DNA of 64,000 nt from Devosia sp. 2618 (GTDB taxonomy: Bacteria; Pseudomonadota; Alphaproteobacteria; Rhizobiales; Devosiaceae), in the NCBI RefSeq assembly GCF_040546815.1, contig NZ_JBEPOO010000001.1:806001-870000 (forward strand), written 5' to 3'. Positions 8,712 to 9,916 of this stretch are shown here, in pieces (position 1 is the first letter of the stretch; the number at the start of each line of letters is the position of its first letter). The translations under genes and the position numbers were made by a program. The notes beneath the pieces were generated by a model. The model had not been told where the DNA came from. It searched no databases and saw only the letters and a list, made by a program, of their open reading frames with translations.

Positions 8712-8816
8712 AGAAAAAGAAAGGCCCCGCCCGAGGGGATGGGCAGGGCCTTATGGGGTCATCAGCCGAAGCATCTGACCTTGGAGGAGCAGCGCCACGA
8801 ACGCTGCTTGTTTGGT
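8712..8816 (-). ncRNA. Small RNA D of the anti-SD array (diverged member)
   Basis: A transcript of about 105 nt is predicted from a start near 8816 to a strong terminator: GGCCC-U-GCCC pairs with GGGC-G-GGGCC (8723-8732 with 8741-8750), followed on the minus strand by TTTCTTTTTC. It contains one CUCCUCC motif (8783-8789). Unlike its relatives the motif is not in a hairpin loop but beside a stem (AGCAGCG/CGCUGCU) inside an outer GACC/GGUC pairing. No reading frame of note is present. It is grouped with the other three because of position, motif, terminator and promoter layout. Start and end are inferred. Confidence 0.5.
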
Positions 8817-8822
8817 CAAAAC

Positions 8823-8851
8823 ACTATGATTTGCCGGGGTGATTAGCACAA
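8823..8851 (-). promoter_or_regulatory. Promoter of sRNA D
   Basis: On the minus strand TTGTGC (-35, 8846-8851), a 17-nt spacer and CATAGT (-10, 8823-8828). Confidence 0.45.
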
Positions 8852-8907
8852 TTGTTCAATGCGAAGTGCTGCCATGCAGATTCACAACTACCGGGAATGA
8901 AGGGGGC

Positions 8908-9103
8908 AAAAAAAGAGGCTCCAACCGAAGTTGGAGCCTGATGATAGGGCCGAAGCCAAATCGAAAGTAATGGCCCAGCGCAAGGGAGGAGGATATGCGC
9001 CGAACTGGTTGGACCCAGGCCGAGGGAGGAGGATACGACCTAAATCCGGTGTCGCAAGAAGCGGGTCCGAGGGAGGAGGATACGGAGCGGCTTCACCAGC
9101 GAC
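8908..9103 (-). ncRNA. Small RNA C: three CCUCCUCCC-loop hairpins (CcsR/cuckoo-type)
   Basis: A transcript of about 196 nt is predicted. Three successive hairpins expose 13-nt loops UAUCCUCCUCCCU: stem UCCG/CGGA with loop 9070-9082; an imperfect AGGUCG/CGGCCU stem with loop 9023-9035; and UGCGC/GCGCA with loop 8983-8995. The loops contain the anti-Shine-Dalgarno core CCUCC. The 5' UGUCGC can pair with GCGACA downstream of loop 1, enclosing that hairpin. The 3' end is a perfect 10-bp terminator with a UUCG tetraloop (8916-8939) followed by seven U. Such loops define the CcsR/cuckoo sRNAs of Alphaproteobacteria. Exact ends are inferred. Confidence 0.82.
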
Positions 9104-9109
9104 AAAGCC

Positions 9110-9138
9110 AATATAGATTTTGACCTTTTGGTCAGCAA
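9110..9138 (-). promoter_or_regulatory. Promoter of sRNA C with palindrome in the spacer
   Basis: TTGCTG (-35, 9133-9138), 17-nt spacer, TATATT (-10, 9110-9115) on the minus strand. The palindrome TGACC-TTTT-GGTCA (9121-9134) fills most of the spacer and overlaps the -35, so it is a candidate operator. Confidence 0.6.
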
Positions 9139-9202
9139 TGCGGGTTGGCGAATGTCAGCTATGCAGTGAGCACAGCGACAAGTTGTCAAGCAATTGCCCA
9201 CC

Positions 9203-9239
9203 AAACGAAAAGCCCCCCCTTTCGGTAGGGCTTCGTTTC
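9203..9239 (-). terminator. Terminator of the 55-residue membrane protein gene
   Basis: On the minus strand a hairpin with GCCC/GGGC and flanking AAACGAA/TTCGTTT arms is followed by CTTTTCGTTT. Confidence 0.6.
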
Positions 9240-9277
9240 GACCCGTATCGCGCCAGGCGATGCGTCTCAGGGCGCGC

Positions 9278-9445
9278 TTAGAATACCGCGAGGTATTTGA
9301 GCAGCGAGATGATGCCGATGACAATCACAACGATCTGGACGATCTGGCGAATGCGCGCTTCGATTGGCAGGCGCTGGACCAGCCAAAGGATAAGCACAAT
9401 GACCAGAAACGTAATGAGAATGCTGATTAGAACCGAGGTGCCCAC
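9278..9445 (-). CDS. 55-residue Thivi_2564-like membrane protein
   Basis: Translation from the GTG at 9445 gives a 55-residue, very hydrophobic protein: an N-terminal membrane helix (VLISILITFLVIVLILWLV), a short charged turn (QRLPIEARIRQ) and a second helix (IVQIVVIVIGIISLLKYLAVF). Length, two-helix layout and the LWLVQR-I-RQIVQIVV pattern match the small Thivi_2564-type membrane proteins (family assignment from memory). TTGGAG lies 8 nt upstream. The frame extends upstream to 9889 but would then translate two sRNA genes in reverse, so the short start is chosen. It is embedded between sRNAs B and C in the same orientation, with its own terminator. Confidence 0.75.
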   Translation of the reverse strand: MGTSVLISILITFLVIVLILWLVQRLPIEARIRQIVQIVVIVIGIISLLKYLAVF

Positions 9446-9533
9446 GTTAATCTCCAAGCCGCGCGTAGTGCGCCTTTGTAAACGCTGGTCTTTCTGGTTC
9501 GTTGCGTTGCTTTGAATTTTGTTTCTGCAGAGC

Positions 9534-9722
9534 AAAAAAAGGCCCTGTCCGAAGACAGGGCCTGATGACTGGGCCGAAGCCAAATCGAAAGTGGGGTAGA
9601 GAGCAAGGGAGGAGGATATGCGCTCTACCGTTGAACCTTGATCGAGGGAGGAGGATACGATCTCGGTTCGGTGTCGCGATACGGGGTCCGAGGGAGGAGG
9701 ATTCGGAGCGCGTCTCAGCGAC
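9534..9722 (-). ncRNA. Small RNA B: three CCUCCUCCC-loop hairpins (CcsR/cuckoo-type)
   Basis: A transcript of about 189 nt, closely related to sRNA C. Hairpin loops with CCUCCUCCC lie at 9691-9703 (stem UCCG/CGGA), 9645-9657 (perfect GAUCG/CGAUC) and 9606-9618 (GCA/UGC extended by a 6-bp outer stem across a mismatch). The stems differ in sequence from those of sRNA C while loop sequences are kept, which is strong evidence for a structured RNA. Shared with C are the 5' UGUCGC/GCGACA pairing and a roughly 22-nt linker before the terminator. The terminator is a perfect 9-bp stem with UUCG loop (9541-9562) followed by seven U. Confidence 0.85.
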
Positions 9723-9728
9723 AACCCG

Positions 9729-9757
9729 AATATGTACTCTAGCGGCCAAGTCGACAA
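9729..9757 (-). promoter_or_regulatory. Promoter of sRNA B
   Basis: TTGTCG (-35, 9752-9757), 17-nt spacer, CATATT (-10, 9729-9734) on the minus strand. Confidence 0.55.
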
Positions 9758-9800
9758 TGGAGCGTTGGGTATGGGAGCTATGCAAATATGCCTAGGCCCG

Positions 9801-9916
9801 AAAACAAATGTGGCCCCGCTCGAGGGGAGAGCGGAGCCACAAGGATGCGGGAGCAAGCCCCCGCAAGGAGGGAACGCAGCAGAGCGCAAGGGAGGAGGAG
9901 AAGCGCCCGCTGTGCT
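9801..9916 (-). ncRNA. Small RNA A of the anti-SD array
   Basis: A transcript of about 116 nt. One hairpin GCGC/GCGC (9884-9887 with 9903-9906) exposes a 15-nt loop with CUCCUCCUCCC, and a second CCCUCCUU motif (9866-9873) contains the same CCUCCUU as the 16S rRNA 3' end. The terminator pairs GUGGC and CCGCUC arms with GAGCGG and GCCAC (9810-9840), followed on the minus strand by ATTTGTTTT. It has two motifs, like the classical cuckoo RNAs, rather than the three of B and C. Ends are inferred. Confidence 0.72.

Follow-up and report, generated by a model that had tools for sequence, protein, structure and literature searches.

What are the four short, strongly structured units that follow a trxB-LysR gene pair in Devosia sp. 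2618, and what might switch them on? They form an array on the minus strand (9978-8713) of a 64-kb stretch of contig NZ_JBEPOO010000001.1 (positions 806,001 to 870,000 of the forward strand), the whole of which is called the window here and supplies all coordinates not marked otherwise; the genome that carries the array has 4.26 Mb. A sequence-only reading had proposed small RNAs (sRNAs) of the CcsR/cuckoo kind, with motifs like the anti-Shine-Dalgarno (aSD) sequence in the tail of the 16S rRNA, which contains CCUCC. The answer favoured here differs in part. It is likely that the array consists of four sRNA genes with one promoter type, which are driven by a nearby LsrB/VtlR-type regulator and repress many mRNAs via CU-rich seeds on Shine-Dalgarno sites. 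What the DNA itself shows is four units with their loops and terminators, one shared promoter geometry, stem covariation in units 2 and 3, and a constant position downstream of trxB-LysR.

The four units are the following (nt, nucleotides):

9803..9916, minus strand: unit 1, a predicted AbcR-like sRNA of about 114 nt; its ends are estimated, the start being put 7 nt past the -10 element
9535..9722, minus strand: unit 2, a predicted cuckoo/ar14-type sRNA of about 188 nt
8908..9103, minus strand: unit 3, a predicted cuckoo/ar14-type sRNA of about 196 nt
8713..8816, minus strand: unit 4, a predicted sRNA of about 104 nt

Unit 1 folds into a hairpin with a CUCCUCCUCCC loop (9890-9899), a single-stranded GUUCCCUCCU (9866-9875), a second hairpin and a terminator (9841-9809). 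Unit 2 has three hairpins with CCUCCUCCC loops at 9692-9701, 9646-9655 and 9607-9616, followed by a small hairpin and a terminator (9563-9540), and unit 3 has three hairpins with UAUCCUCCUCCCU loops at 9071-9080, 9024-9033 and 8984-8993, again followed by a small hairpin and a terminator (8939-8916). The hairpin loop of these two units is UAUCCUCCUCCCU throughout, except for AAUCCUCCUCCCU in hairpin 1 of unit 2, and their terminators are of the UUCG type. Unit 4 consists of a hairpin, a CUCCUCC junction (CTCCTCC at 8783-8789), a second hairpin and a terminator (8752-8721). Units 1-3 together expose seven CCUCCUCCC loops, and unit 4 exposes the CUCCUCC junction instead.

The motif TCCTCCTCCC occurs in the window at 9890-9899 (unit 1), at three sites in unit 2 and at three sites in unit 3; seven of its 11 genome copies lie within the window. 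When two mismatches are allowed, the window count is not significant by number, as 5 of 100 shuffled sequences reach the 8 hits observed; six of the 8 are exact 12-mers. A terminator scan found four terminators in the array, all on the minus strand (shuffled sequences average 1.9), and the fold z-scores of units 1 to 4 are -6.4, -5.3, -4.1 and -4.75, with 0 of 200 shuffled sequences folding as well for each unit.

A promoter of the same layout stands before every unit:

9923..9978, minus strand: promoter of unit 1, box TGCATAGCTAATATGC, 27 nt from the box start to the -35 element TTGTTG, 17-nt spacer, -10 element TATATC
9729..9784, minus strand: promoter of unit 2, box TGCATAGCTCCCATAC, -35 element TTGTCG, 17-nt spacer, -10 element CATATT
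9110..9165, minus strand: promoter of unit 3, box TGCATAGCTGACATTC, -35 element TTGCTG, 17-nt spacer, -10 element TATATT
8823..8878, minus strand: promoter of unit 4, box TGCATGGCAGCACTTC, -35 element TTGTGC, 17-nt spacer, -10 element CATAGT

A strict pattern (YGCATR, whose first base lies 27 nt ahead of a -35 TTG, a 17-nt spacer, then NATANN) was derived from these four sites and the upstream regions of the relatives. These are 80 named loci, chosen as the best 80 among 114 relatives found for the LysR protein, and they represent Devosia, Pelagibacterium, Arsenicitalea, Cucumibacter and various metagenome-assembled genomes. The pattern matches exactly four times in the window, once before each unit, and only 2 matches in total were obtained in 200 simulated windows. 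Across the 80 loci, the LysR strand has 212 matches, of which 209 fall within the array span, and the opposite strand has none. This strand bias and the near-absence elsewhere are not built into the pattern. Together with the motif, terminator and fold data, these matches bear out the sequence-only reading of four minus-strand units that each have a promoter, aSD hairpins or an aSD junction, and a terminator. A generic scan for sigma-70 promoters of the E. coli type found none in the array.

An independent test used the VtlR box GCAT-N3-TG-N3-T, which was published for Brucella and proposed for Agrobacterium (PMC7486931). In 111 of 173 units this box begins 70-92 nt upstream of the first motif (0.0021 expected per slot), and in the window the box of unit 3 matches the published sequence exactly. 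The string TGCATAGCTNNYATNC has three exact matches in the genome, ahead of units 1, 2 and 3; with one mismatch there are five further genome matches, none of which has a strict promoter. The predicted LsrB-type box starts about 62 nt ahead of the estimated transcript start; in Sinorhizobium, the LsrB box at nfeR1 is reported at -72 to -57 (PMC10746234). A looser expression, chosen after the sequences had been viewed, finds a box before unit 4 in 33 of 33 cases and is not used as evidence.

Selection on RNA structure is visible across the relatives. The 43 loci with two three-motif units provided 43 examples each of units 2 and 3. At each of the six hairpins, the two arms of one locus pair better than arms combined across loci (none of 2000 permutations was as good), with the caveat that hairpin 2 of unit 2 includes at least one arm pair that does not pair by this measure. 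After removal of units at least 95% alike, 25 and 30 sequences were aligned, and RNAalifold predicted 26 pairs for these 55, of which 23 show one or more double changes that preserve pairing. In this alignment hairpins 2 and 3 have invariant loops, and the first loop is misaligned by a base or two. The structure of units 2 and 3, with fixed loops and covarying stems, is under selection. Double changes are fewer in unit 1 (5 of 16 pairs; 21 of 22 kept sequences, L063 being left out as its single motif belongs to unit 2) and in unit 4 (5 of 19 pairs; 31 of 32 sequences, without L046 because of its repeat-rich surroundings). Paired substitutions, on which the sequence-only reading had made its case depend, are present across the loci, and its statement that loops stay fixed while stems compensate holds for all six hairpins in units 2 and 3 but less so in units 1 and 4.

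It might be asked whether some units are decaying duplicates, kept by tandem duplication while only the others are active. Of six NfeR1 copies in S. meliloti, one is readily detected (PMC7143759), and the fixed core of unit 4 across the relatives, CTCCAARGTC, was found as a pattern in just 33 of 71 sources. Nevertheless, all four promoters of the window have retained one geometry, and stem covariation persists in both unit 2 and unit 3; decay is considered highly improbable.

Which known family do the units belong to? Covariance searches of the array with Rfam models, suggested along with the CcsR/cuckoo proposal, returned ar14 and CcsR1 below the gathering thresholds. The ar14 model (RF02344, gathering 58.8) gave 34.9 bits for unit 3, 31.0 for unit 2, 26.1 for unit 4 and 22.3 for unit 1, and CcsR1 (RF02791, gathering 65.3) gave 27.3 bits for unit 3 and 21.9 for unit 2. 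In 32 of 41 related genomes the ar14 model matched at E <= 0.001; one match exceeded the cut-off and came from another family, and there was none above it in the 25 genomes of the same genus.

The cuckoo family is described as having two to four hairpins with a fixed loop and free helices (PMC4504443). Units 2 and 3 agree with this description, unit 1 has one such hairpin and unit 4 has none. Units 2 and 3 also resemble ar14/NfeR1, which is activated by LsrB in Sinorhizobium (PMC10746234), in that they have three hairpins exposing CCUCCUCCC, free stems and an LsrB-type box upstream. They differ from it in their length (about 190 nt versus 115 nt for NfeR1), in having a distinct terminator that follows the third aSD hairpin, whereas the last aSD hairpin of the ar14 model enters the U tract, and in their tandem position within the lsrB neighbourhood. 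By the printed coordinates, NfeR1 and AbcR1/2 of S. meliloti 1021 lie about 31 kb apart (PMC7143759).

Unit 1 is built differently. AbcR is described as having three hairpins in about 114 nt, aSD1 in the first loop and, between hairpins 1 and 2, a further seed that reads UUCCCCUC in Sinorhizobium (PMC8844928); Brucella AbcR carries M1, CUCCCA, in the first hairpin and M2, GUUCCC, single-stranded between hairpins 1 and 2 (PMC5461406). AbcR is placed downstream of trxB-vtlR (PMC7486931). The same layout of motifs is found in unit 1, which has an aSD-loop hairpin, a GUUCCC stretch, a second hairpin and a terminator within about 114 nt, downstream of trxB-LysR. Its first loop holds CUCCCU, one base off M1, and GUUCCCUCCU, which contains M2 exactly, is invariant in 21 of 21 sequences. 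Unit 1 differs from ar15/AbcR in its longer loop CUCCUCCUCCC, in the second seed GUUCCCUCCU that replaces UUCCCCUC, and in the 1.5 or more genes that intervene in the Devosia window. It is termed AbcR-like and not a member of ar15 (RF02345, gathering 40) because it scores 13.4 bits over the full model (E 1.4) and the ar15 model matches 0 of the 25 same-genus genomes at E <= 0.001.

One gene seems to bridge unit 1 and ar15. In a genome of another family (G033, locus L189, 9836-10046, minus strand), a gene found with the ar15 model (29.9 bits, under the ar15 cut-off) adjoins trxB and a LysR gene whose product is 58% identical to that of the window. It has the same promoter geometry, being the sole carrier of the strict promoter found outside the window's family, and the unit-1 model matches it weakly (15.5 bits, E 0.033). 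The four units are not all of one kind: units 2 and 3 are NfeR1/ar14-like, unit 1 is AbcR-like and unit 4 is a separate type.

The CcsR label itself does not fit. CcsR1-4 of Rhodobacter sphaeroides derive from cleavage of the transcript of ccaF1, a DUF1127 gene with an RpoHI/RpoHII promoter (PMC10253847, PMC8307010). On this model the Devosia units would be RNase E pieces of one stress-induced precursor under heat-shock sigma control, with a DUF1127 helper protein. The CCUCCUCCC loops are alike, four sRNAs stand in a row in both cases, and the CcsR1 model gave the scores stated above; however, each Devosia unit has a promoter of its own, which carries a VtlR/LsrB-type box, and a separate terminator, and the three DUF1127 matches of the genome all lie outside the window. 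Because there is no DUF1127 gene in the window and each unit has one promoter, the array is not a CcsR arrangement; the assignment was rejected, and processing of such a precursor is considered very unlikely. What stands of the CcsR/cuckoo proposal is that these are aSD sRNAs with fixed CCUCCUCCC loops and free stems as in PMC4504443; the CcsR label and the notion of a single kind do not. The exact VtlR box is absent from the approximately 3-kb loci around the three DUF1127 matches, and the idea that DUF1127 genes are further LsrB targets was likewise rejected.

If not a heat-shock sigma factor, what could drive the array? The sequence-only reading omitted the gene pair upstream:

13788..14756, minus strand: trxB, thioredoxin reductase (NCBIfam TIGR01292, 406.7 bits, cut-off 343), immediately upstream of the LysR gene
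12778..13671, minus strand: LysR-type regulator gene (Pfam HTH_1 and LysR_substrate)

The LysR gene ends 2.8 kb before the first array promoter and shares 97% identity with its counterpart in Devosia sp. YR412, and the trxB-LysR pair is constant in the relatives. A LysR gene paired with trxB and VtlR-type boxes before nearby sRNA genes, the features that mark LsrB/VtlR loci in PMC11975290 and PMC7486931, are both found here. The locus resembles the LsrB/VtlR loci of Agrobacterium, Brucella and Sinorhizobium in the trxB-LysR pair, the VtlR-type box and the aSD sRNAs downstream of the regulator, and differs from them in an array of four units of three types versus AbcR genes alone, and in a regulator with a single cysteine.

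The coupling of array and regulator gene is widespread among the relatives. The motif is present in all 69 loci with at least 4 kb beyond LysR, 67 of which have two or more copies; the seven loci that lack it extend just 34-3360 nt past LysR, and the strict promoter is nonetheless present in two of them (L113 and L117). The 80 loci have 393 motif copies, all on the LysR strand, of which one (L108:1881) lies outside the array. Of 25 same-genus genomes, counting that of the window, 24 have two close TCCTCCTCCCT motifs, which none of 16 genomes from other families has. A covariance model of unit 1 reaches at least 55 bits in 68 of the 80 loci, 20 of which were training sequences (out of sample, 48 of 60), and all 248 matches listed are on the LysR strand. 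For unit 4, the model search covered the window plus 75 of the 80 loci (L082, L087, L091, L092 and L113 excluded); 34 of these 76 sources score at least 85 bits, 31 of them from the training set. In the Devosia genome itself, the only hits of the unit-1 model at E <= 0.001 are one per unit (to the 3' half for units 2 and 3); the sequence-only reading had stated that the flanks hold no further copy, which is true of the window.

The genes around the units are more variable, with a HAD hydrolase, CorA, a 163-amino-acid (aa) protein and two neighbours of special relevance among the intervening or adjacent genes:

9278..9445, minus strand: membrane-protein open reading frame (ORF) of 55 aa with a GTG start, Thivi_2564 family (NCBIfam NF041949, 54.2 bits, cut-off 33), between units 2 and 3 and present in only some relatives
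7469..8605, minus strand: gene of a 378-aa protein without a Pfam or NCBIfam match, which follows the array in many Devosia loci

Both lie just downstream of a unit on the same strand, the ORF after unit 2 and the 378-aa gene after unit 4, its neighbour in many relatives too, so that the units might be cis-acting leaders or attenuators of these genes. Units are retained, however, in loci in which no membrane ORF or no 378-aa gene was found, and every unit has its own terminator; such a cis role would be very improbable.

In other families, the strict promoter was found at 0 of 25 examined places that match the ar14 or three-hairpin model. The pattern may be too strict for these places, given that S. 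meliloti NfeR1 has an LsrB box with a different -35 element, CTTAGAC (PMC10746234).

It should be noted that the parts of the favoured mechanism have published counterparts. The LsrB protein of Sinorhizobium activates NfeR1 and accounts for the transcription of AbcR1, and NfeR1 and AbcR1/2 repress mRNAs, many of them encoding ABC transporters, by aSD seeds at the translation initiation region (PMC10746234, PMC8844928). All these parts come together at the Devosia locus, and control of every unit by the local LsrB-type protein would be the simplest explanation. Each unit would be transcribed on its own, with the LysR protein binding the GCAT-N3-TG-N3-T-type box and switching on all four. Units 2 and 3 would be extended versions of cuckoo/NfeR1-type RNAs, each with three redundant seeds, unit 1 would be built like AbcR, with GUUCCCUCCU between hairpins 1 and 2 as the second seed, and unit 4 would be a further design with a CCUCC junction. 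By likeness to NfeR1 and AbcR1/2, the CU-rich seeds would occlude ribosome-binding sites, and the four units would act as redundant translational brakes.

Several observations weigh against this account. At the gathering thresholds, the array has no Rfam match, and the ar15 score of unit 1 is poor. The fit of the strict promoter pattern is partly built in, because the pattern was drawn from the array sites and the relatives, and the boxes of units 1, 2 and 4 are each one base off the published VtlR box. The assignment of the LysR protein to the LsrB/VtlR type is a prediction from synteny. The protein has one cysteine only, at residue 233; C144 and C273 are called conserved in LsrB, where they form a redox switch pair (PMC11975290), and with a single cysteine this pair must be incomplete in the window protein. 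The single cysteine counts against a direct copy of the oxidative-stress account given for Agrobacterium.

The targets are a further point. The arrangement GGGAGGAGG-N(2-10)-ATG has one genome site outside the array, before a transketolase gene (Pfam PF00456). In the leaders of 30 transketolase genes, the 30 best loci of 41 genomes (L235-L264), all nine bases of GGGAGGAGG are kept in 23 and eight or more in 24, and six lack the site. It stands 51-62 nt ahead of a conserved ATG, which is probably the true transketolase start. In 21 leaders that were folded, a mean of 7.8 of the nine bases is paired in a leader hairpin, and since the site is mostly paired, a cis hairpin explains its conservation equally well; that the best target candidate has this rival explanation also counts against the favoured account. 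An eight-base search found 12 places, several of them before frames of fewer than 65 codons and others including genes of an extracellular solute-binding protein, a CHRD protein and an adenylate kinase. From these transketolase and eight-base searches of the genome, no target is claimed.

The absence of a fixed mRNA target in these searches would also suit a variant in which the LsrB-driven array is real, with the CU-rich loops serving mainly as decoys or as protein-binding sites, for example for an RNA-binding protein; seven near-identical loops do resemble multivalent binding sites. The same loops, however, act as mRNA seeds in NfeR1 and AbcR1/2 according to mutation tests (PMC10746234, PMC8844928), and the variant is judged unlikely.

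AbcR and NfeR1 are studied as separate sRNAs with common targets and a common activator. Here both architectures adjoin behind one promoter type near the regulator, in an order kept in Devosia and its relatives. A more speculative proposal, held only tentatively, is that the Devosia array represents the founding cassette of the alphaproteobacterial aSD sRNAs (an LsrB regulator next to one AbcR-type, two NfeR1/cuckoo-type and a fourth sRNA gene, with a common promoter type), from which the dispersed ar15 and ar14 families of other Hyphomicrobiales arose, and in which one signal yields a graded dose of four RNAs. If the favoured reading of the array is right, a single 1.3-kb locus of a soil bacterium would allow tests of whether the aSD sRNA families have a common origin and of why a cell retains seven near-identical seeds. 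In any case, the Rfam gathering thresholds miss this aSD sRNA branch in 24 of 25 same-genus genomes, namely those with weak ar14 hits. In the open-licence literature searched for Devosia and Pelagibacterium sRNAs, the motif and the family names, no account of the array was found, although the founding cuckoo paper could list Devosia members.

Three minor observations may be added. The three-hairpin model has one extra weak hit in the genome (L233, C1:1683259-1683390; 26.9 bits) with a single motif copy; no strict promoter was found in the 3.1-kb locus around it, and the hit is probably due to chance. Unit-1 model hits of 28-36 bits in three other genomes (G165, G164 and G129; L198, L199, L200 and L204) have no LysR gene, trxB or VtlR box within their approximately 3-kb loci. 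Finally, the sole Rfam match of the window at gathering is an RNase P RNA of bacterial class A on the plus strand (40429-40815, 304.4 bits).

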